Shown piece after piece: positions 46,408 to 63,546 of a stretch of 64,000 nucleotides of DNA (within the stretch, counting starts at the first letter, position 1; each line of letters starts with the position of its first letter). Below the pieces are notes generated by a model that ran no database searches, was not told the origin of the DNA, and was given only the letters and a program-made list of their open reading frames with translations. The DNA is from Narthecium ossifragum. Its lineage: Eukaryota; Streptophyta; Magnoliopsida; Dioscoreales; Nartheciaceae. The position numbers and the translations under genes were made by a program. The stretch spans positions 2,268,956 through 2,332,955 of the forward strand of contig OY986972.1 in NCBI GenBank assembly GCA_963920575.1, given 5' to 3'.

Positions 46408-46729
46408 GAAAAGAAGGGAGATTTAAATACTTGGTGGGCTTCTCCATGGAAGCCATGGCTTTGACTTGGTAGAAGGATTTGGAGGGTTGAAGAGTTTGAA
46501 GGCAAGAAGGTGAAGGTGTTCTTGGTGGCTGCTCTTGGATGGAAAAGTTCCTTGAGTTGTGAATGCATTGAATAATAGGCATTGTCCTCAAAAGGAAGCT
46601 TCTTTTATGCTTCATGCCTGACATACCTTCATTGCATGTGTGGTAATAATAATGTTATTTCAAATTCTTTTGAATGGAGGATAAAAAAGTTCTCCTTTTT
46701 TTTTACTCTTTTTTTTGGGGCAAATATTA

Positions 46730-49021
46730 GGATTTTGCTACAGGCAAGGACCTTGCAAGGAGCTTGCAAGGATCTTGCCACGTGGCCCAATCAGCGGGCG
46801 CCACGTGGCACTCCCCAAACGGCATAATAGGCAGGCGGGGAGAGAGATTGGGCGGGCATTTTGATTTTTCATTTCTCTCCCTCTCTCCTCGGCGCAGCGG
46901 CGATCTCCCTCTCTCTCCCCGGACCCCGACCTGCCGTCCCTCTCTCTCCGACGGCGTCGCCGGCTCCGGCTCCTCCTCCGGCATCGTCCGCGCGCAAGAT
47001 ACGGTATGTTGTAAAATCCCTAAACCCCTCCCCGACCTCTCGTCCCTCTCTCTCTCCGGCGCGGCGATCTCTCTCTCCTTCCCTCCCCCCACCGCCCCCC
47101 TCCTCGTCCTCTCGTCACTCTCTCTCCCCGGCGCCGGCGTCAGCAACCCCCAAACGCACGATAAAGGCCTTTTTTTTTGACGGTCTCTCGATGGTAGGCG
47201 GTAGGGTTTCAAAACGAGGGAGAAAAGGAGGTGCCGACCTCTCTCTCTCTCTCATTCTCTCTCATTCTCTCCCTCTCTCTTCCCACCGCCCCCCTCCCCC
47301 GACGCCCCCGACCATCCCGGCCACCTCTCAGCCCAAAATCCAGCGCCTTGCATTCTCTCTCTCTCTCCCTCCCTCCCCCTACCGCCCCCATCCCCAACCT
47401 CTCGTCCCTCTCTCTCCCCGAGTCACGTAGCTTGGTTTGAAGGTCCTCTTTTGGGAGTAGACCATTGTCACCTTCCATGGAATATCTAGCTTAGGTCATG
47501 ACACAATTCGCACCATGCTAGCGGAATCTTTAGATCCTTCCTACAAGGTCACCAGTTAAGCACCGATTTAAAGTTTCCTTGGGGCATTCCAATTGAAATT
47601 TGGACTGTTATTGATATTGAGTTTGGAAATCCAACTGGTATGCTGCACATGTCTGTTTTGATTTATGTACCCTTTTTTTTTTTTTGCAATTTGGTCTTAG
47701 CAATATGTCGATATTGGTGATGTCACAGATGGCCAGTTGGAGAAATTAAAAGTTGACCAGTGCAAGGTTTACTTGAGAAAGCATGGGCTGAGACTTACAG
47801 GCAACAAAGACACTCTTATTGGGCGCATTAGAGAGCACCTTGAGTATGTTCTTGTTTTTTTTTACCTAATTTTCTGTATTGAGTATGTCCTTGCATCATT
47901 CTGTTCCACCATCAGCGCTTCATATGTTCACTTCTTGACAAAAAAACTCCTGCCTTATGAGTTAGTTGTTAAACATGTCTTTGAGCTGGTTCATCTGCCA
48001 GACCATGGAATCATTACACAACTATGTAAAACCAAGCAAATTTTTCTTGGCCATTATCCGTCTTAGTTTTTATTTTTGCGTGAATGCTTGAATTTCAGGG
48101 TAATAGATGGACTTGGGGAGAAGAAATACCCTTTATCTAGTTTCGTACTAAACTGCAAAGGTAAACTCTTACTTATATTCCAACTGTGTCATTAGACAAA
48201 ATAGTCATCTCTGCTTTCAAGATTGAGTGTTAATATATTTTGTATGGTAGCATTTCTTAGCTTCCTGGTATTAGTAATCAATTTTTAACATATATTTCAC
48301 CTGTTCCTGCTACAATCGCCTATATGATTTGCACTGTAAGTTATAATAACTGCTTCAATTTGATCAAAATCATGGGGAACATTAAATGATTTAAAGCAAC
48401 ATATTAGTGGATTTTCCTTCAAGAATAACTAATATGTGACATTAGTACTTCTCTTATTGTTGATGTTTAAAATAAACTGCTTTTTGTTTCTTCTCTGATA
48501 GATTATGGTTGTTTATAGGTAGCATTTCTTGCCTATCTGATTTGAGTAATCAATTTTTAGCCATATAATCTTGATCTATTGCTGCTACAATCAGCACTTA
48601 AAACTGGTTTCACGGTGAATTGTACATTTCCGCTTCCATTTGATCAGAAGCACAGGGAACATCATGATCCAAAGAAGCATATCAGTATAGAAGTTGCTTA
48701 TGACAATATTTGACAGTTTCTTTGATACAGGCACCTTAAGCCCACTATTTTTCTATTTACTTTGTTTGTCAGGTTGGACAAATTTCTCATAACTAGTTAG
48801 CTTATCTATATAAGTTGCTTATGACAATATTTTAAATGAATGGCACTGATCATATGCTTTGATACTCTGATTTATTAGACTGCTGCATATTTCTTTGGTG
48901 TGTACATCATTAATATGATTTTATGGAGGTGTCTATTGCTCTTTGATTGAGACCACTTACAGGATGTGGATTATGATTTTTAAACATAATATTCTTTTGC
49001 TATTGTTTTATTCTTTCCAAC
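46730..49021 (+). repeat. Left arm of the 2,292-bp inverted repeat
   Basis: Every position x pairs with position 104196 minus x in the right arm, with no net length difference over the whole arm. I noticed one substitution (48404 region, gcaacat versus gcagcat in the other arm) and a mismatch near 49017. The outer 60 bp contain repeated gcaagg/ccttgc motifs and a cacgtgg box; then comes a 650-bp CT-rich, GC-rich stretch (frames there are low-complexity Ser/Leu/Pro), then the SAP gene fragment and its introns. Confidence 0.95.
47701..48160 (+). pseudogene. SAP-domain gene fragment (CCCH zinc-finger 62-like), left copy
   Basis: Two exons with good splice sites: 47701-47843 (after ttag, donor gtatgt) and 48099-48160 (after ttcag, donor gtaaac), in phase. 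The first encodes a SAP DNA-binding helix-turn-helix (KLKVDQCKVYLRKHGLRL, then NKDTLIGRIREHLE); the second encodes VIDGLGEKKYPLSSFVLNCK. The pair recalls plant CCCH zinc-finger protein 62. The start, the zinc fingers and the rest are missing. A further open stretch at about 47569-47680 (LKFPWGIPIEIWTVIDIEFG) precedes it and is unassigned. Confidence 0.65.
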
Positions 49022-49404
49022 TGTTACCAAATTGAACCCTGATTTCCTGTCATGAGTAGAGTATAGGATAGCTTGTTAATATCATTAGACTTGAGCCTCC
49101 TTTTTAAACCAAGAACAATAAAGTGAAATTGAAACTGCTAATCTGAAGCACAACATCATGAAAAATGATCTGAGAAAACAAGTAAGAAAAGTGGTTCTGT
49201 TTATGCTTTAATTGCAATTTCTATATATTGATATATGATTAGTGATATAAGTTTATATTTGAACAACAATAGCTGAGACTGAAACATGCAACTAGATATT
49301 ACTATTTTCTTGCCACAAGGAAATCTATAGTGTCTACCTTGAACGCTACTACTTTTTACTTGGGGCATCTATGATAGCTTTTGTGAAGCTTTATCTTTTA
49401 CCTT

Positions 49405-50850
49405 GAACCAGTTATTGCAACTCTTTTGAGAGAGGTTCTCAAAGCTCTTGTTTGTCTTCATGGTCATGGACATATACACAGAGATGTCAAGGTGTGAGAT
49501 TTTGATCTTTAACTGCCACCATACAACATTTTCTAACTGGTTACTATCCTTTATTGAGCATAATTGATGCTCACTAAGGTTTAGATCCTGTCTATATTCT
49601 AGACATTAGAGTTTTACTTGATAGCCTAGTTGAGAAACATTCAGAGGAGAAAAAGCTCATGTAATCCAAATGACTAGAATAAGAAGCAAATCAATTTTCA
49701 CAAAGGCCATTGTTAGATGACAAAAGCTTCTTGAAAGTGTTATATCTTTGCTGCTCCTTGTTATGTAAGATAATCCTCTTCATTCCTTATCTTTCTATGT
49801 ATGATTTTACCTACTCGTCTGTCTATCTATGTAGATCTCTGTATGTTTGTACACATGCTTACTTAGTTGTACCTATGTATTCGTTAGTTTGTGAAAGAAC
49901 ATGTTTTAGTAAATGTTCTTTTTGCTACTGATGAAAAATTTTCAATTTGCAAATACTTCTGATGGAAGAGTATGTTTATGTTCATAATTATTCGTGACAT
50001 TTTGTTCTAGTATGAGCCTCTATTATTTACCATTTAAAATGAAGGCTTGAAAAGGAGAATGGAAGCAGTAAAGGCATTTGCAGAGCTTGTTATGACAGAT
50101 GGTGTAGCCGTATTGGTCACTTAATTAGGAAGAAGAATGTGCAAATTTGTGCAGATAGGATGCTCCCTCAGGAATGTAGGATGCAAAATATGCATGTATA
50201 GTGGGTTTGCGTTTCATGTGTCTATATGCGGTACTTACTGTCTGATTGAGAATTGAACTTGGTTTTGTCTTGTTAACCATCTGCCTTTTGATCTTTTTGT
50301 TTTATGTGTGATTTATCCATGTAGTTGACAATAATTTGCTCTCTAGGTGTTGCTTATGAGCTTGCAAAATGCACCACCAGGTCTTGATTACGAAAGAGAA
50401 AAAAGATTTTCAAAGGTTCGTGTTCTTTATATCCTCTATTTGGCAAAGCGAAAAAAAAAACAATTTACATTGGTTGAAAGTGGTCCATTTTGTAGTCCTT
50501 TAAAGAGATGGTGGCTGCTTGCTTGGTAAAGGATCCAAAGAAGCGTCCCACATCAGATAAGCTTTCAAAACATCCTGTGGAAAAGAACAAGAGCTACACA
50601 GGATTACTTCGATTCACATTCTTTTGCTGTCTAATATCTTTCAACATGCAGATTGAGGTACTTATCATGATGCTAGACAAAAATAGGACAAGAGATGGTG
50701 GCTGCTTGCTTGGTAAAGGATCCAAAGAAGCGTCCCACATCAGATAAGCTTTTAAAACATCCTATGGAAAAGAACAAGAGCTGCACAGGATTACCTCGAT
50801 TCACATTCTTTTGCTGTCTAATATCTTTCAACATGCAGATTGAGGTACTT
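49405..50850 (+). pseudogene. Ste20-type protein kinase fragment
   Basis: Three separated exon pieces of a BLUS1/FRAY-like kinase: 49405-49491 (PVIATLLREVLKALVCLHG, then HIHRDVK, the catalytic loop up to HRD..K); 50347-50415 (VLLMSLQNAPPGLDYERE, then KRFSK); and 50496 onward (SFKEMVAACLVKDPKKRPTS, subdomain XI). The N-lobe, DFG and APE segments are absent, so no functional kinase is possible. The last exon is duplicated in tandem at 50691. Family naming is from memory of plant Ste20-like kinases. Confidence 0.7.
50504..50850. repeat. 160-bp direct duplication in the kinase fragment
   Basis: Copies 50504-50663 and 50691-50850, offset 187 bp, differ at only a few positions. Each contains the kinase subdomain XI exon and following intron sequence. 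Confidence 0.9.
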
Positions 50851-51050
50851 TGGAGTACAGGACAGAAACCATTGCCTGCACTTCATCCTCTCCTCATCAA
50901 AGGAAGGAATCTTTACCGCCTTAAGACTATGAGGCAGGTATTATCTGTTTGTGTTCTGCCTCAACCTGTTTCTTTGTTCTTTGGAAATTTGTCTGTTTTA
51001 GAAAATCTTGAAGGCTTAGTTAAGAGGGGATCCTTGACTCAGGATCCAAT

Positions 51051-51257
51051 GATTTGCACTGTAAGTTATAATAACTGCTTCCATTTGATCAAAATCATGG
51101 GGAACATTAAATGATTTAAAGCAGCATATTAGTAGATTTTCCTTCAAGAATAACTAATATGTGACATTAGTACTTCTCTTATTGTTGATGTTTAAAATAA
51201 ACTGCTTTTTGTTTCTTCTCTGATAGATTATGGTTGTTTATAGGTAGCATTTCTTGC
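51051..51257 (+). repeat. Third, partial copy of arm sequence inside the loop
   Basis: 207 bp matching 48326-48532 (left arm) at constant offset 2,725, and 55664-55870 (right arm) in reverse. A few substitutions; at the arm mismatch it carries the right-arm base (gcagcat). Confidence 0.9.
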
Positions 51258-51419
51258 AGAGAACTGGTAGCTAGATAAAGTTTGCCATTTAATGCAGAGA
51301 ACTGCCTTTTTGTCTGTGTATAAAGCTCAATAACAATATTGTCAAATTGCTTCTGGCTTTTTCCCCAGCAATTTTTCCTCATCTTTGGCAACGTAATGAG
51401 ATTTAATTTTTGGTGACAG

Positions 51420-51731
51420 GCGCAGATAAGGCAACAAGGAGATTTTGAGTCCCTCCATCGGGACATGATGGTTGGTTTTGGAAAATGGGGGTTTGACCCC
51501 ATGGATCTTGAAAACCCCTTCCTGCAGAACGAAGGCTCGATCCATCTGTGGCATGGTGCTGAGGATTTGATCGTGCCGGTGATACTCTCACGTTACATCA
51601 GTGACAAGCTCCCTTGGATCCGATATCATGAGTTACCACATGCTGGTCACTTGTTCCCATTTGCGGACGGCATGAGTGATGCTATTGTCAAGGCACTCCT
51701 GACTGGAGAATCGGAGATCAGTAGCCTGTAG
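51420..51731 (+). pseudogene. Alpha/beta hydrolase, last exon only
   Basis: Exon from a gacag acceptor at 51419 to a tag stop: 104 codons with AQIRQQGDFESLHRDMM, GFGKWGFDPMDLENPF, IHLWHGAEDLIVPV (position of the acid residue) and ELPHAGHLFPFADG (catalytic His of a serine hydrolase fold). It matches, from memory, the C-terminus of plant alpha/beta hydrolases. The nucleophile-elbow exons are missing and the sequence upstream is the arm-derived repeat, so this is a captured 3' fragment. The peptide at 50850-50938 (TGQKPLPALHPLLIKGRN) may belong to it or to another gene; unassigned. Confidence 0.75.
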
Positions 51732-52536
51732 TTCTAGTCTTCCTGCCTTTCTTCAGTCCAGGACTTCTCTTTTTATTTTGTTTTGCTATTTATTCTATTA
51801 GAGTAGTTGTTAAAGGATGGATTTCAATGTAGTATTCTGGATACAAACTTCACCCAGGAAAGTGGTCGTATACGATGGATGTTCGTTCTTTGTGTCTAAC
51901 TTTCAAGAGGAAAAATTTATGTATAGATATTGATAAAAAACTATGAAGGCTCACACGTTTAAAATTTGAGCCACTAAGAAAAGCTCACCAACAACCTTTA
52001 GAATAAGTTCACATCCTATAATCTGTGGAAAAGGAAAAAATCCATGTTTACCCTTTGTATCTATTGTGAGAAAACGAAAGAAAACTTTGGACTGGATATG
52101 AGAGAAATTTGTTACGAAGGATGTTAGGAAAAACAAACCATGGTTTCAAATAGCTTCATTAGGACAACTTTATAATTTGGGTCTAGTTTGAGGGCAACAA
52201 GATGGATAAATTGAACTTTAATACGCTGTAAGTTTAAACTCTGAAAAATGGGAGAATGGAAGAGGTAAGAAGGACGAGTTTTAGGAAATACATTAGTAAA
52301 GAACATTTCAAGTACAAAATTTTCTGGAAGGCATAAGATACATTAGGAAGAATACAAATTATGAGGAAAGAAACCCTGCTTCAGAGAAATGATGCCAGCA
52401 CTGATCAAAATTTAGTGTGCCTCTAATTTTCCCGAGTAGATCGAGGTCCAGAATAACTTATTCAGTTGACTTATTGCAACAGAACCTACAAGGCGCACTT
52501 TGAGTGTTAAGATCATCATCACTCTTAAACAACTCG

Positions 52537-52963
52537 CTATGGAAGACCAGTCTCAGAGCTGATAAGAGCTTCAGCTTCATCGGCGACCAACATTGGACCT
52601 CTTCCAGATCTGGTGCAGATGAAGTAGCTGACATCCCCAGCAAATTTTTGAGATGGATACTTGTCCTTGATTTCAGGAGGTGGCTGCAGGGCTTTGACAT
52701 CTTCCATGGATTGGAGACCAGCTTCATGTAGTATTGATTTATCGCCCAAAACATAGCTAAACAGAAAAGGAATAAAGTTGGACCAAAATTGAATATGTCC
52801 ATTTAATAGCAGCCAATTCTACATAGTTATGGCTATACCTGGCCAACTCATTATCCGGTGGTGGAGGAAAGGTAAAGAGTAACCTTTGAAGCAGAAGACT
52901 CGCAATTTTCCGGTTGGGTGCAATCATAACAGCATTGGGTCCCGCATCAAATGTATAAGCAAC
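52537..52963 (-). pseudogene. MVD: Diphosphomevalonate decarboxylase, C-terminal fragment
   Basis: Two minus-strand exons join in phase: 52839-52963 ([19 protein letters not shown]) and 52537-52756 ([14 protein letters not shown], then [15 protein letters not shown] and a terminal ETGLP stop). These match the C-terminal third of plant MVD, the mevalonate-pathway enzyme making isopentenyl diphosphate. The ATP-binding and catalytic N-terminal two thirds are not in the 1.4 kb upstream, so it is a fragment. The intron is retained. Confidence 0.8.
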
Positions 52964-54488
52964 CTATGATGCACCAGTCATAAGGCTAAAGCACTCAAAA
53001 CTATTAAGGAGAGATAATCGCAAGGAGAGTTTGTCATACACTAAAAAAATCAGCAAATATGACTTTATAATATGTCTTTTGACTTCTAAATTACACTTGG
53101 AATCTACACAAGCTGAATCAAATACTCTCCATTTTTCATTCTAATATCCTTTCTTTGTGCCTAGTAACTTGCCCTATTTCATTTATTCAGCATTTTAGTA
53201 TTTCCTCTTTCTCTTAATTGAGATAAGTGAAGTTTTAGAAAGTAGCAGTATCTTCCACTACCAGTGCCTATCTTACCCCATAAGCATGGGAATGTGCTTC
53301 TCTCTAAGAAATTCACTGCTAGGTTATAAGGCATGTATGGTTGTCAAGTTATATAATAGGCGACTTTAGTTATTATATTGGACATCTAGTACAAGTACAA
53401 GTACAAGCCGAGGAATATATATCCATATAACCTGTGTATATACAAACCATCACAGATCGCTTAGATGCAGTACACGCTTTGACTAAAGGAGGTCACTAGT
53501 ATGCAGTGTGCCTAGTGTGATGCAAAAAAATTTTAAGTGATATTTTCAGCCTAAATTCTACAGAGGTATGGATCATTTGGGATACTTAAATGTCAACAAT
53601 TGGCAGACACAAGAAGCCATCGAAGGGAAAGAATAGAGGAAAACAGAGCATATTTACACAAAAACACAAACACAAATAAGTTGTAATTTGTATCATCCCG
53701 CAACAAATACTCCATCATCTCACAATTCTAGTACCACATGGTGGACCTGTTGCACTTCTAGATGCCACATTGAACCTGGAGTTGTAGGTAAAACAAGAGG
53801 AAGAGAACAACTATGAGAAATAGGAGGAAGCAACAAAATGGGAGTAAAGAGTTATGTATATAGAACCACCCTTGACTGAATCAGAGTGATAGGCAAACAA
53901 TAAGTACCATCAGTGTTTCCCATGCTTAGAGTCCCAAAATTATTATCATTTAATCATATAAGAAGCCAATGCAAACTTACTCAGGATGTTATCTCAATTG
54001 CTTTGCTTGAGTTCAAAATTTTATCACTTAGTCATATAACTTGAATCGCTAAGAGCGAATTATAACATACGAGATGTGAAAAACACAAAAAAATAGGAGT
54101 GATTCCTCCACCAATATATGATTCCAATTACCAGTATTGTGCTAATACTCTTTACTTTGTCAAAGATAAAAGGCTCATACTGAAATAATTGCTTTCCGAT
54201 AGGACTTCTTTACCTCCCATTCAATACCAGCACTCAACTTAGAATCCTAAGATTTTCTTGAACTGGATGTATGAGGTCATTTGCTGCTTGTGATGCCATT
54301 TAATGTAAAAGGACACAGAAAAAATAATAATGCAATTCAAACAACACAAAGAGATGGCAAACAGGATTTGAGATCTTTATAAGTGGTCAAAAAGCTTATT
54401 TTACATCTCAACTAAAACTTGCCTGCAGTAGTGTGAAAGAGGAAACACAGAAGAAAGCAAGAAAACAAAAAAGAAAAGAAAGGAGTAC
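52964..54488. other. Loop sequence without recognised exons
   Basis: AT-rich DNA between the MVD and DUF707-like fragments; it may be captured intron. A short agtacaagtacaagtacaag repeat is near 53391. No MVD exon was found here. Confidence 0.4.
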
Positions 54489-54846
54489 CTTGGAAGAATC
54501 ACCTGGTACATGAGTTTGGGATGTTTTGTTCCTGTCTGAATCAGGATTCGATGCCAAATCAAGGTCAGCTCCAATGGATCTACTATCATCGACAAAGGCC
54601 ATGTCAACCGTCGAAGGCAGGTTGGGGACTAAACTAAGCTGCCACATTTAAACAAAAAAAATATATCATTTAACCTTTAAGAAAGAAATCTAGATTGGCA
54701 TGCGAATGACAATGAACAGGTTATTAGAACTTACCCTTGGGACAGAGAAGTTTGGGAAACTAATCCCAACAAAGACCCCAAAAAAGACTCCCAATATTGT
54801 AGCAACAATAAGTCTGGCACTTTCATTGGACTTTTTCACAGATGCA
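54489..54846 (-). pseudogene. DUF707-like N-terminal fragment (membrane-anchor region)
   Basis: Two minus-strand exons: 54735-54846 (a Lys/Ser stretch, then the hydrophobic ARLIVATILGVFFGVFVGIS, then FPNFSVPR) and 54489-54638 (LSLVPNLPSTVDMAFVDD to HVPGDSSK, then a gtactcc donor). The membrane anchor followed by GISFP and the THVPGDSSK junction resemble the N-terminus of plant DUF707 proteins as I remember them. The globular domain is absent. The assignment is tentative. Confidence 0.4.
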
Positions 54847-55174
54847 CTGGAGGAGGAAAAAAAAGAAGCTAAGTCTACCCCAGTCACAATTATCATTTAT
54901 AACGTTCTCTGTAAGATGAAAATAGGCTGAAAAAAGGTGGAAATGAGAAAAGATGTAAACACTTTGAGAAAAGAAAGCTCTGAACTTGCGAGAAAGGGTA
55001 TGCATCATATCACACTGTCTCAACTGAAAGCAAACAGCCAGCATTGCTCAAGCAATCAGATATTGATGATAAAGCTACAGCATTCTTTGATAACAACCAC
55101 CTTTGCTAGATTATCTGCTGCAGATGATCTGTATAATTTTATATTCGACAATGATAACTTATCTGACAAAACAT

Positions 55175-57466
55175 GTTGAAAAGAATAAAACAATAGCAAA
55201 AGAATATTATGTTTAAAAATCATAATCCACATCCTGTAAGTGGTCTCAATCAAAGAGCAATAGACACCTCCATAAAATCATATTAATGATGTACACACCA
55301 AAGAAATATGCAGCAGTCTAATAAATCAGAGTATCAAAGCATATGATCAGTGCCATTCATTTAAAATATTGTCATAAGCAACTTATATAGATAAGCTAAC
55401 TAGTTATGAGAAATTTGTCCAACCTGACAAACAAAGTAAATAGAAAAATAGTGGGCTTAAGGTGCCTGTATCAAAGAAACTGTCAAATATTGTCATAAGC
55501 AACTTCTATACTGATATGCTTCTTTGGATCATGATGTTCCCTGTGCTTCTGATCAAATGGAAGCGGAAATGTACAATTCACCGTGAAACCAGTTTTAAGT
55601 GCTGATTGTAGCAGCAATAGATCAAGATTATATGGCTAAAAATTGATTACTCAAATCAGATAGGCAAGAAATGCTACCTATAAACAACCATAATCTATCA
55701 GAGAAGAAACAAAAAGCAGTTTATTTTAAACATCAACAATAAGAGAAGTACTAATGTCACATATTAGTTATTCTTGAAGGAAAATCCACTAATATGCTGC
55801 TTTAAATCATTTAATGTTCCCCATGATTTTGATCAAATTGAAGCAGTTATTATAACTTACAGTGCAAATCATATAGGCGATTGTAGCAGGAACAGGTGAA
55901 ATATATGTTAAAAATTGATTACTAATACCAGGAAGCTAAGAAATGCTACCATACAAAATATATTAACACTCAATCTTGAAAGCAGAGATGACTATTTTGT
56001 CTAATGACACAGTTGGAATATAAGTAAGAGTTTACCTTTGCAGTTTAGTACGAAACTAGATAAAGGGTATTTCTTCTCCCCAAGTCCATCTATTACCCTG
56101 AAATTCAAGCATTCACGCAAAAATAAAAACTAAGACGGATAATGGCCAAGAAAAATTTGCTTGGTTTTACATAGTTGTGTAATGATTCCATGGTCTGGCA
56201 GATGAACCAGCTCAAAGACATGTTTAACAACTAACTCATAAGGCAGGAGTTTTTTTGTCAAGAAGTGAACATATGAAGCGCTGATGGTGGAACAGAATGA
56301 TGCAAGGACATACTCAATACAGAAAATTAGGTAAAAAAAAACAAGAACATACTCAAGGTGCTCTCTAATGCGCCCAATAAGAGTGTCTTTGTTGCCTGTA
56401 AGTCTCAGCCCATGCTTTCTCAAGTAAACCTTGCACTGGTCAACTTTTAATTTCTCCAACTGGCCATCTGTGACATCACCAATATCGACATATTGCTAAG
56501 ACCAAATTGCAAAAAAAAAAAAAGGGTACATAAATCAAAACAGACATGTGCAGCATACCAGTTGGATTTCCAAACTCAATATCAATAACAGTCCAAATTT
56601 CAATTGGAATGCCCCAAGGAAACTTTAAATCGGTGCTTAACTGGTGACCTTGTAGGAAGGATCTAAAGATTCCGCTAGCATGGTGCGAATTGTGTCATGA
56701 CCTAAGCTAGATATTCCATGGAAGGTGACAATGGTCTACTCCCAAAAGAGGACCTTCAAACCAAGCTACGTGACTCGGGGAGAGAGAGGGACGAGAGGTT
56801 GGGGATGGGGGCGGTAGGGGGAGGGAGGGAGAGAGAGAGAGAATGCAAGGCGCTGGATTTTGGGCTGAGAGGTGGCCGGGATGGTCGGGGGCGTCGGGGG
56901 AGGGGGGCGGTGGGAAGAGAGAGGGAGAGAATGAGAGAGAATGAGAGAGAGAGAGAGGTCGGCACCTCCTTTTCTCCCTCGTTTTGAAACCCTACCGCCT
57001 ACCATCGAGAGACCGTCAAAAAAAAAGGCCTTTATCGTGCGTTTGGGGGTTGCTGACGCCGGCGCCGGGGAGAGAGAGTGACGAGAGGACGAGGAGGGGG
57101 GCGGTGGGGGGAGGGAAGGAGAGAGAGATCGCCGCGCCGGAGAGAGAGAGGGACGAGAGGTCGGGGAGGGGTTTAGGGATTTTACAACATACCGTATCTT
57201 GCGCGCGGACGATGCCGGAGGAGGAGCCGGAGCCGGCGACGCCGTCGGAGAGAGAGGGACGGCAGGTCGGGGTCCGGGGAGAGAGAGGGAGATCGCCGCT
57301 GCGCCGAGGAGAGAGGGAGAGAAATGAAAAATCAAAATGCCCGCCCAATCTCTCTCCCCGCCTGCCTATTATGCCGTTTGGGGAGTGCCACGTGGCGCCC
57401 GCTGATTGGGCCACGTGGCAAGATCCTTGCAAGCTCCTTGCAAGGTCCTTGCCTGTAGCAAAATCC
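55175..57466 (-). repeat. Right arm of the 2,292-bp inverted repeat
   Basis: Reverse complement of 46730-49021. Even the 13-base homopolymer (t at the left, a at the right near 56511-56523) has the same length in both arms, which points to a very recent duplication or to gene conversion between arms. The similarity stops inward at caac (55175-55178). Confidence 0.95.
56036..56495 (-). pseudogene. SAP-domain gene fragment, right copy
   Basis: Mirror copy of 47701-48160: exons 56353-56495 and 56036-56098 on the minus strand, with the same translated sequence. The two copies point toward each other across the loop, so transcription through the locus from either side would give one sense and one antisense copy. 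Confidence 0.65.
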
Positions 57467-58406
57467 CTTGTATTATGACTATATTGTGGAAAATTCTAGC
57501 CTTATTGATGTTTGTATTTGTCCCCCTTTTCTTAATTGAGTTGTTGCCAAAATAAATAAAAAAAACCTTAGCACTACTTTTCAGAGAAATCTTTTGCAAT
57601 ATTCTATAATCTTTTGCAATATTCTGTGATTTCTTAAGATCACACACACACACACACAGATTATGAGAAAATAAAACCGGTATAAATGCCACCGGCCCAC
57701 CGGCATAAAGTTATACACCATTCAAAATATTTCCAAACCAGTACGCTTTGCAGGAGGTTATATGTCTTAATAGTAGGAAGTTTTTACAACAAAAATAAAA
57801 AAAAGAGACAATATATTCAAAAAGTACAAAAAAAAGAAAAAAAAATTGATGGAACATACTACCTATCTAGCACATCGGGATTAATATAGGCATCTTGAGT
57901 CAAGAATTGGAGAAGATGAATCCACCATATGTGTCAAGTATCTATGTATAATTAATTTTTGTGAAGTATTTGTCCATAGTCAAAGAATGATGGTATTTGA
58001 AATGGATATAAGTGCCCTATCAACTTTGAAAGTTGACCATCAACTCATAAAAAATAAAAATAAAAAACTTTGAAAGTTGACTAGGAGGCACTGTGATTTA
58101 ATTGAGAGAGATTTGCTTGGTGGAGATTTGAAGTTGCCTCCAAAGATCTTTTGAGGGGGGGATTTTGTGTTCCTCCGAATCTGATGATTTACTTACATTA
58201 TTTTCGTGATTTTCGAATCTATTATTGATTATGATACTAGCCTGGATTGCCTCTGATGATGATTGATGCTGTGAATCTGTTGACTTCATTTGATACATGA
58301 ATCTGATGATTTCAAATCTGTTGACTTTTTCCTCTGTGTTTGGTTGGATTACCTCTTATGACACTGAATCTGTTCATCTTCTCTGATACATGAATCTGGT
58401 GAGTTC

Positions 58407-59880: not shown

Positions 59881-60494
59881 CTTTTTACATATTTCTCCTT
59901 CAAAAATTCCTAAATATCATAATTACCCTTATAATTTTTTCAGCTTACTGAACTACTCTTGAAATATTAGTAAACCTACCTCTCCGTCCACCACCGTCCA
60001 CATATCTAACCTAACCATAGTTTAAACCTGACACGGGCCAGTAGACTTACTTAATTGGCCCCATGCTATTTTAAGCCAACATGTGTAACGCCCACTTAAG
60101 TTTCTTCCCGCGCATTCATCAATCACCGGCCTAATATTATCAACATAAGTCCTAAGTTCATGGAGATGCCTTCACTCTTTGTCTCCTAATCAAGGCATCT
60201 CCAAGAACTTAGGACATAGGTTGATAATATTAGGCCCGTGATTGATGATGAATGTGCGGGAAAAAAACTTAGGTGGGCGATACACATGTTGGCTTAAATT
60301 AGCATGGGGGGCAATTAAGTAATTCTGCTAGCCCGAATCAGGTTTAACCTATGGTTAGGTTAGATATGTGGACGACGGTGGACGGAGGGGTAGGTTTGAT
60401 GATTTTTCAAGATTTCAAGGGTAGTTAATAAGCTGAAAAAATATAGGGGTAATTATGATATTTAGAAATTTTTAAAGGAGAAATATGTAAAAAG
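59881..60494. mobile_element. Foldback element, about 0.6 kb
   Basis: Arms 59881-60172 and about 60194-60494 are reverse complements with moderate divergence along their full length: ctttttacatatttctcc at the ends, tccgtccaccaccgtccaca and taatattatcaac inside, and ggagatgcctt at the tip, leaving a loop of about 21 bp. It has no coding capacity. It is a full-length foldback MITE or a fossil inverted repeat. Confidence 0.8.
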
Positions 60495-60695
60495 CCTATT
60501 TTTTATTTCCCCATAAAATTGTACTTAGATCTAGAGATCAGATGTGGCCACCAATGTCTTGATAAACCTTTCATAGACGATCACAATAATATCTGAACTT
60601 GTATGATTAGGGCACTTACTGGAAAGCAACTGAATGACAACTCCTTGCATTACTGCTCTGGTTTGCTAAATAGTCCCAGTTTTAATAAATTCTTA

Positions 60696-61611: not shown

Positions 61612-61745
61612 TTAAGGCCAACTCAAAGCTGGTTTGCAAAGAGACACGCAAACAATACCAAGTTGAGCTTCTATCAAAAAAGAACCGCGGAGGATGACAA
61701 GCATTGAAGTCAGTGAAATAAGTCGGCCACTAATTCTCTTAAGAA

Positions 61746-62137
61746 GGCGTTTGGTTGCTTGCATCAGTTGATGCATTGCACAAAAAAATAAGTGTTTGGT
61801 TGCTTGTATCAACTGATACAGTATTAACTCGTTTTATGTTTGATTTGTATGTATTGCATCAGTTGATACAGTTGTTTCATCTGATCCAATTCTTTGTTTT
61901 CTGTTTGGTTGGTATGTGATGCATCACGTAATATCACGTTCTTCGTTTTTTGTTTGGTTGGTATGTGATGCATCACGTGATGCTGATGCTGCATCAATAC
62001 TGATGCAACCAATTTTATGACATACCTGATGCTGCATGAAGCCACCGTATTGCATCAACTAATGCCGCATCAGTTGATGCATCTGATCAACCAAACATGA
62101 GTTTGGATCATGATGTTGCATCAACTGATGCATGCCT
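61746..62137. repeat. TGATGCATCA-rich segment, copy 1
   Basis: Starts ggcgtttggttgcttgcatc and ends gatgcatgcc. It holds many tgatgca/tgcatca half-sites and full palindromes (gcatcagttgatgc, gatgcatcacgtgatgc). It looks like a MITE made of subterminal repeats. The second copy is at 62605-63052; the third is cut off after 63528-63546. Confidence 0.7.
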
Positions 62138-62604
62138 TAGAATCTCGTGAGTCCAAATCAGCATTCAAATAGAACATATTTGTCATCCAATTTGTCACTC
62201 GGATTTCTCAAAATTCCCCATCAGTAGCTCTTAGATGACAGATATTACTTTATCTGTTTTGATATGTGATGTTCAGTGCCCATTCTTTTATTTCCCCAAA
62301 AAATTGTACTTAGATCTAGAAATCAGATGTGGCCAGCAATGTCTTGATAAACCTTTCATAGACGATTACAACAATATCTGAACTTGTATGATTAGGATAC
62401 TTACTGAAAAGCAACTGAATGGTAGCTCAACTGCTCTGGTTTGCTAAATAGTCCCAGTTTCAATAAATTCATAAGGCCCACTCAAAGCTGGTTTGCAAAG
62501 GGACACACAAACAATACAAAGTTGAGCTTCTATCAAAAAAGAACCGTGGAGGATGACAAGCATTGAAGTCAGTGAAATAAGCCGGCCACTAATTCTCTTA
62601 AGAT

Positions 62605-63052
62605 GGCGTTTGGTTGCTTGCATCAGTTGATGCATTGCACTAGATGATGCAAAAATAAGTGTTTGGTTGCTTGTATCAACTGATACAATATTAACTCGTT
62701 TTATGTTTGGTTTGTATGTATTGCATCAATTGATACAGTTGTTTCATCTGATCCAATTCATTGATTCTTGTTTGGTTGGTATGTGATGCATCACGTAATA
62801 TCGCGTTCTTCGTTTTTTGTTTGGTTGGTATATGATGCATCACGTAATATCACGTTCTTCGTTTTCTATTTGATTGGTATGTGATGCATCACGTGATGCT
62901 GATGCTGCATCAATACTGATGCAGCCAATTTTACAGCATACCTTATGCTGCATGAAGCCACCTTATTGCATCAACTAATGCCGCATCAGTTGATGCATCT
63001 AATCAACCAAACATGAGTTTGGACCATGATGTTGCATCAACTGATGCATGCC
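62605..63052. repeat. TGATGCATCA-rich segment, copy 2
   Basis: Second copy of the segment at 61746-62137, with an additional tandem ggtatatgatgcatcacgta unit that makes it about 55 bp longer. Confidence 0.7.
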
Positions 63053-63546
63053 TTAGAATCTCGCGAGTCCAAATCAGCATTCAAATAGAACATATTTGTC
63101 ATCCAATTTGTCACTCGGATTTCTCAAAATTCCCCATCAGTAGCTCTTAGATGACAGATATTACTTTATCTGTTTTGGTATGTGATGTTCAGTGCCCATT
63201 CTTTTATTTCCCCAAAAAATTGTACTTAGATCTAGAAATCAGATGTGACCAGCAATGTCTTGATAAACCTTTCATAGACGATTACAACAATATCTGAACT
63301 TGTATGATTAGGATACTTACTGGAAAGTAACTGAATGGTAGCTCCTTGCATTACTGCTCTGGTTTGCTAAATAGTCCCAGTTTCAATAAATTCATAAGGC
63401 CCACTCAAAGCTGGTTTGCAAAGGGACACGCAAACAATACCAAGTTGAGCTTCTATCAAAAAAGAACCGTGGAGGATGACAAGCATTGAAGTCAGTGAAA
63501 TAAGCCGGCCACTAATTCTCTTAAGAGGGCGTTTGGTTGCTTGCAT

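Follow-up and report, generated by a model that had tools for sequence, protein, structure and literature searches.

How does a stretch of plant DNA come to be bounded by two long, nearly identical inverted arms that both contain part of a host gene? The question is raised by a 10.7-kb element at positions 46730-57466 of the window analysed here, a 64,000-nucleotide stretch of the Narthecium ossifragum genome (assembly GCA_963920575.1, contig OY986972.1, forward-strand positions 2,268,956 to 2,332,955). We regard this element as probably, though by no means certainly, a non-autonomous Pack-type DNA transposon of Mutator-like anatomy, built from two half-elements of captured exons, in which one end was then copied onto the other. 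It looks like an unusually clear case of a known kind rather than a new kind. A preliminary description of the same DNA had left the choice between an unusually large Pack or foldback transposon and a composite inverted duplication; our analysis favors a mixture of the two, in which the Pack-type character is retained and the internal chronology adds later end-to-end copying.

Self-comparison of the window returned as its dominant inverted repeat the segments 46730-49021 (left arm, plus strand) and 55175-57466 (right arm, inverted), each 2292 nucleotides long and separated by 6153 nucleotides. Alignment with BLAST reached 4-5 bases deeper, pairing 46730-49025 with 55170-57466 over 2297 columns with two mismatches and one gap; the two substitutions lie at 48399/55797 (A/G) and 49017/55179 (C/T). 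The equal length and near-identity of the arms, as well as the mirror sum of 104196 that relates their positions, thus agree with the preliminary description. The terminal 20-mer was found within the window only at the two element ends, compared with an expectation of 0.00 (100 shuffles, up to 3 mismatches). Given the self-comparison and this restriction of the 20-mer to both ends, we judge the arms to be far beyond chance. The same 20-mer gave no match in the IMG/VR and GTDB genomes, as expected for a plant element, and a literature search for the string GGATTTTGCTACAG returned nothing. The terminus itself (46730-46829, plus strand), which begins with GGATTTTGCTACAGG, contains an 11-bp repeat present 3.2 times (46744-46778) together with palindromes, and its predicted single-stranded DNA fold is much stronger than that of shuffled sequences (z -4.75, 0 of 200). 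The outer part of the arm (46730-47430, plus strand) has a guanine-cytosine (GC) content of 62%, against 35% in the inner arm, and numerous CT runs occur in the outer 0.7 kb of each arm. Between this GC-rich part and the first recognised exon, at 47430-47700, we also noted an open frame (47502-47720) with no Pfam match.

Behind the GC-rich outer part, each arm carries two exons resembling the SAP/DUF7699 protein C3H62. Exon a, which encodes the SAP domain and scores above the Pfam cut-off, lies at 47730-47843 on the plus strand and is mirrored at about 56353-56466 on the minus strand; exon b, VIDGLGEKKYPLSSFVLNCK, lies at 48099-48160 on the plus strand and is likewise mirrored in the right arm. 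The preliminary description, which allowed for arms that had captured a gene, did not list two further exons of the same kind in the loop, namely exon f, the end of DUF7699 (50839-50937, plus strand), and exon d, FNVASRSATGPPCGTRIV (53719-53776, minus strand). All four places (a, b, d and f) were each matched by 120 of 120 proteins at E-values up to 5, these being the best 120 of 315 found with a query built from the exons themselves, so that the count is not independent proof of each exon. Independent of this bias, the order a-b-(c)-d-(e)-f was found within a single protein in all four of the full-length proteins shown. Exons c and e and the N-terminal part of C3H62 had no match in the element among the 25 clusters reported, with the limit that tblastn could miss the short exons c and e; a single further cluster, a weak one, fell within the element at 54874-55026 (E 0.26, from 3 of 120 proteins). 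The test accommodates one parent gene and two close paralogues alike. In the intron past exon b, the arm contains an old tandem duplication of about 170 bp with 73% identity (48246-48686). A sensitive self-comparison of the element gave, within this arm intron and its copies, repeats of about 172 columns at 73%, 58 at 81% and 36 at 89% identity. These intron repeats apart, it added nothing beyond the arms, a third partial arm copy and a tandem duplication in the loop (both described below), and the idea of older, longer arms was rejected.

Pieces of further genes occupy the loop. Three derive from a kinase, with an HRDVK exon of OSR1/STE20 type at 49409-49491 and pieces 2 and 3 at 50348-50577 (50348-50417 and 50497-50577), all on the plus strand; they match the OSR1 structure 3dak (E 3.4e-19) and fall below the Pfam cut-off. 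On the minus strand, the two last exons of mevalonate diphosphate decarboxylase (MVD), stop codon included, lie at 52536-52966 (about 52842-52966 and 52536-52757), and this C-terminal end was recognised both by Pfam above the cut-off and by structure 6n10 (E 1.7e-33). Both identifications had been made in the preliminary description and hold. The alpha/beta-hydrolase fragment named there, a 3'-terminal exon with its stop codon at 51421-51732 (plus strand), found weak matches only, to Abhydrolase_1 below the Pfam cut-off (E 0.057) and to a best solved structure at E 5.8e-05. Two exon-like open pieces at 54491-54850 (minus strand) gave no library match, including none to DUF707 in Pfam; the label of a DUF707-like N-terminus, given to them in the preliminary description, is kept here as a presumption. 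Fragments of host genes thus lie between the element's ends, from C3H62-like, kinase and MVD genes and, weakly, from a hydrolase gene. Judged by eye, AG and GT signals are visible at most of the recognised exon edges, and this retention of introns and splice signals beside the exons indicates that DNA, not RNA, was captured. None of the 12 exon pieces, which sum to 1452 bp, contains a stop codon.

These fragments are arranged in two inward-reading halves. From the left end inward, on the plus strand, the order is a, b, kinase, f and the 3' end of the hydrolase; from the right end inward, on the minus strand, it is a, b, DUF707-like, d and the 3' end of MVD. Each half ends in a 3'-terminal exon with a stop codon, and these two exons face each other across the interval from about 51.73 to 52.54 kb of the window. 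The loop had been described as a mixture of plus- and minus-strand fragments; both strands are indeed represented, but in an ordered manner. With the third arm copy excluded, the seven blocks outside the arms comprise four on the plus strand to the left and three on the minus strand to the right, an ordering that we offer as a description rather than a significance test, since it would arise by chance in about 6% of cases (8 of 128, with a free meeting point).

Subsequently, we used duplications within the element as internal clocks. A 161-bp tandem duplication on the plus strand (50503-50850; units 50503-50663 and 50690-50850) carries four differences between its units and a 26-bp spacer (50664-50689), for which no source word of at least 12 bp was found elsewhere in the window. 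Each unit starts in kinase piece 3 and stops 12 bp into exon f. Because the units span the kinase/C3H62 junction, they most simply arose after both pieces had been joined in the element. In addition, 209 bp of arm intron (48324-48532) recur at 51049-51257 on the plus strand, as a third partial arm copy between exon f and the hydrolase exon. This copy carries 2 differences in 209 positions against the right arm and 3 against the left, and it shares the right-arm base at 48399/55797. At its right border, TGCAGAGAACTG occurs twice about 40 bp apart (51250-51305), a possible trace of template switching. The arms (2 of 2292) are less diverged than the tandem units (4 of 161; Fisher p=0.00024) and than the third copy (2 of 209; Fisher p=0.037). 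This lower divergence supports the conclusion that the arms came to share the sequence they now have once the left half was already in place, and the arms look younger than the loop.

Together, these observations suggest a history in four steps. Initially, the element would have captured part of a C3H62-like gene beside its terminus. The kinase, hydrolase, MVD and DUF707-like pieces, the displaced 209-bp arm piece and the tandem duplication with its spacer would then have been added, probably through repair with template switching; the resulting anatomy is what the locus displays, and a 26-bp spacer and a displaced arm piece are typical marks of such repair. In a third step, which the divergence contrast supports, a break in one arm would have been repaired off the other arm after the left half existed, with copying that overran the original terminal inverted repeat (TIR) and took in captured gene sequence, which thereby came to lie inside a 2.3-kb TIR. 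Such an extension would explain both the captured exons inside the arms and the younger age of the arms relative to the loop. Lastly, two neighbouring related insertions may have fused, their outer ends now forming the pair, or a target-site duplication (TSD) may have been lost in rearrangement; fusion would explain half-elements with different contents as well as unmatched flanks.

Several points weigh against this proposed origin. No intact 8-11-bp TSD was detected in the flanks, the best agreement being 6 of 9 between the left 9-mer CAAATATTA (46721-46729) and the right 9-mer CTTGTATTA (57467-57475), and a match as good over 8-11 bp was reached by 2.8% of 20,000 random pairs of flanks from the window. 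A search of the loop for the internal termini of two fused elements gave best matches no better than those in 20 shuffles, so that fusion would require their deletion. No transposase was recognised among the 27 element peptides run through Pfam; 265 open frames of at least 25 amino acids overlap the element. Furthermore, we infer rather than observe that position 46730 is a genuine transposon end. The chronology depends on 2, 2 and 4 differences and on assumed equal rates, and it would break if the kinase/C3H62 fusion and its duplication predated capture at the donor locus; conversion between the tandem units would only make those units appear younger.

The literature consulted gives Mutator-like elements (MULEs) TSDs of usually 8-11 bp and TIRs of usually 100-500 bp, in agreement with the earlier statement that Mutator TIRs normally measure a few hundred bp at most. 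Long TIRs are present here, at 2292 bp far over that usual range. Since no intact TSD was found in the flanks and no transposase among the submitted peptides, we do not file the element as a MULE: it is better described as operating in the manner of a Pack-type element whose TIRs have been extended, and Mutator membership is not established. Among the TSDs of other superfamilies, registers of 2, 3 and 8 bp matched at 0 of 2, 1 of 3 and 1 of 8 positions, with no TA, 3-bp or 8-bp duplication. Helitrons have a 5' TC, a 3' CTRR with a hairpin and no TIR; this element starts with GG, ends with CC and carries 2.3-kb inverted ends, and a Helitron was rejected. Searching Rfam at gathering scores recovered no family in the window. 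A Mutator/Foldback family has reportedly been found in nematodes.

An ordinary single-insertion Pack-MULE, whose 2.3-kb TIRs are long-standing and include a gene piece, whose arms are identical through youth and whose TSD is decayed or imperfect, is an unlikely but not far-fetched account of the same features. The 6-of-9 flank agreement falls in a 9-bp register, inside the usual 8-11 bp; acquired sequence in extended TIRs is on record (PMC3310237); and the open state of all 12 exon pieces (1452 bp) implies that the element is not old. However, random flank pairs reach the same match at the frequency given above, a TSD changed at 3 of 9 positions and arms changed at 2 of 2292 are incompatible with one clock, and the internal duplication appears older than the arms. 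A TSD decayed to 6 of 9 implies about 17% change per copy, for which 9.7 stop codons would be expected in 1452 bp (P 6e-5), whereas none was observed; the expectation falls to 2.9 at 5% change (P 0.06) and to 0.7 at 1.25%. The absence of stop codons excludes only great age for the element, the test being biased in that exon pieces were recognised partly through being open. A clean, young single insertion should have a perfect TSD, and the fusion of two insertions or the loss of the TSD by rearrangement consequently fits better. Compared as one former site, the left and right 2-kb flanks shared a single 11-bp match.

We consider improbable a rearrangement like that of maize Mu killer, in which one end was duplicated inverted in place, so that both arms represent that one end, with the loop left as debris of the rearrangement. 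Arms of the same end that contain gene sequence, and the missing TSD, fit such an event, and the precedent itself has TIRA at both ends with 1.298 kb of mudrA on both halves (PMC3440606). Against it, the loop measures 6.1 kb and both halves hold captured pieces, each with an extra C3H62-like exon of its own, so that the right half is not a mere copy of the left. This scenario overlaps with the origin that we favor and differs from it chiefly in timing and scale.

More doubtful still is an origin without any transposon, in which a segment of a host locus was duplicated in inverted orientation and the ends are simply breakpoints. A copied segment always aligns end to end with its source, and equal arm length therefore proves nothing; moreover, neither a TSD nor a further copy of the terminus was found within the window. 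Such a duplication does not account for the step in GC content from 42% and 33% in the 1-kb left and right flanks to 62% in the outer arm, for the terminal repeats and palindromes with their fold at z -4.75, or for the presence of fragments from several different genes in the loop, and the lack of a C3H62 N-terminal match among the 25 clusters makes the outer arm unlike that gene's own 5' end. Finally, long near-perfect inverted repeats are a classic assembly hazard, but an artefact, whether a fold-back chimera or mis-joined haplotypes, is highly improbable, given that two substitutions and a gap separate the arms, that the outer flanks and inner borders differ, that in a fold-back chimera one would expect the flank to be mirrored too, and that the third copy has a base in common with one arm only.

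A Pack-type origin with later arm-to-arm copying would place the element among known systems. Pack-MULEs and Pack-TYPE elements are likewise non-autonomous and carry host gene pieces, also from multiple loci, between inverted ends (PMC3310237, PMC8903248), and acquired sequence can become part of their extended TIRs (PMC3310237); by contrast, the arms here measure 2292 bp instead of the usual 100-500 bp, a clean TSD is lacking, and one kind of gene occurs in both arms and on both strands of the loop. Neighbouring related insertions of Pack-TYPE elements have been proposed to act as one through their outer ends (PMC8903248). For Galileo, the proposed mechanism is repair of a broken TIR on the template of its partner, with internal sequence copied inverted, so that the TIR grows inward (PMC3573991). 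The drawing of internal sequence into the TIR through repair from the other end would be common to both; Galileo, however, is a Drosophila element of the P superfamily, its longest TIRs there are 1,260 and 1,241 bp, and what it draws in is sequence of its own rather than a captured host gene (PMC3573991).

For arms that contain gene sequence, the nearest structural counterpart is Mu killer: one and the same end flanks it left and right, its inverted arms include gene sequence, and it has been proposed as a source of hairpin RNA, although the read-through origin of its antisense RNA is disputed in the same report (PMC3440606). The gene repeated in Mu killer is that of the transposase, mudrA, and its target of silencing is MuDR, whereas the arms described here carry a host gene piece. 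MULEs with multiple TIRs share an atypical TIR structure, some with captured gene pieces (PMC3310237); they have mostly tandem TIRs, with 61 tomato cases showing distinguishable TSDs, in contrast to the one long pair and the lack of a detected internal terminus here. A looser parallel is provided by the Histone-H3 hAT elements of Pseudocercospora fijiensis, in which a full-length element holds two copies of one captured host gene; these differ in their TIRs of about 20 bp, 8-bp TSDs, intron-less capture and hundreds of copies (PMC6710886). Our search of the literature, mostly non-subscription, returned no plant Pack element with arms this long that contain host exons.

In 2012, the acquisition of genes by MULE-type elements and the entry of gene sequence into their TIRs were described as not yet understood (PMC3310237); later work has advanced fusion and repair models (PMC8903248) and, in animals, template-switching repair (PMC8277862). 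The present locus is of interest because its arms, third copy and tandem duplication serve as internal clocks, by which events in a single element can be ordered and which point to copying between the arms at a late stage. Should sister copies agree, the extension of TIRs in a plant would have a history open to testing.

The anatomy also has potential consequences for expression. Transcription would start from a promoter in each arm and run inward through the 5' exons as far as a 3'-terminal exon, which would give two convergent chimeric transcripts, and read-through would yield a 2.3-kb hairpin able to feed small interfering RNAs against the element and the parent gene. A 2.3-kb hairpin of host-gene sequence is in this sense a candidate source of small RNA. 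A bolder reading, to which we give little credence, would make the element a self-made convergent chimeric gene pair, in which identical promoter-plus-5'-exon arms co-evolve through arm-to-arm conversion and gene shuffling is combined with a hairpin that silences the parent C3H62-like gene.

Elsewhere in the window, an open frame of 963 amino acids encodes a cytochrome b561/DM13/DOMON protein. Among the best 120 of 376 matches to the 906-amino-acid query, the best-scoring named relatives came from Typha latifolia (75% identity), Dioscorea zingiberensis (77%) and Phoenix dactylifera (75%), with other monocots ranking next, and a partial protein, P0052, showed 81% identity over 81% of the query. 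By these matches the host is a flowering plant and most likely a monocot outside the grasses. The N-terminal part of a minus-strand frame at 45855-46379 matches plant chorismate mutase structures (best E 5.8e-13) with no real Pfam match, and the element's end lies about 350 bp upstream of the first ATG of this frame. To the right of the element, a 614-bp palindrome at 59881-60494, 85% self-complementary and centred near 60187, is possibly a foldback element or one resembling a miniature inverted-repeat transposable element. Beyond it, a cluster of direct repeats of 150-740 bp with 93-97% identity extends over 61613-63546, parts of which have a 200-bp unit in common with 60494-60692; a 49-bp tandem array occupies 62768-62894.

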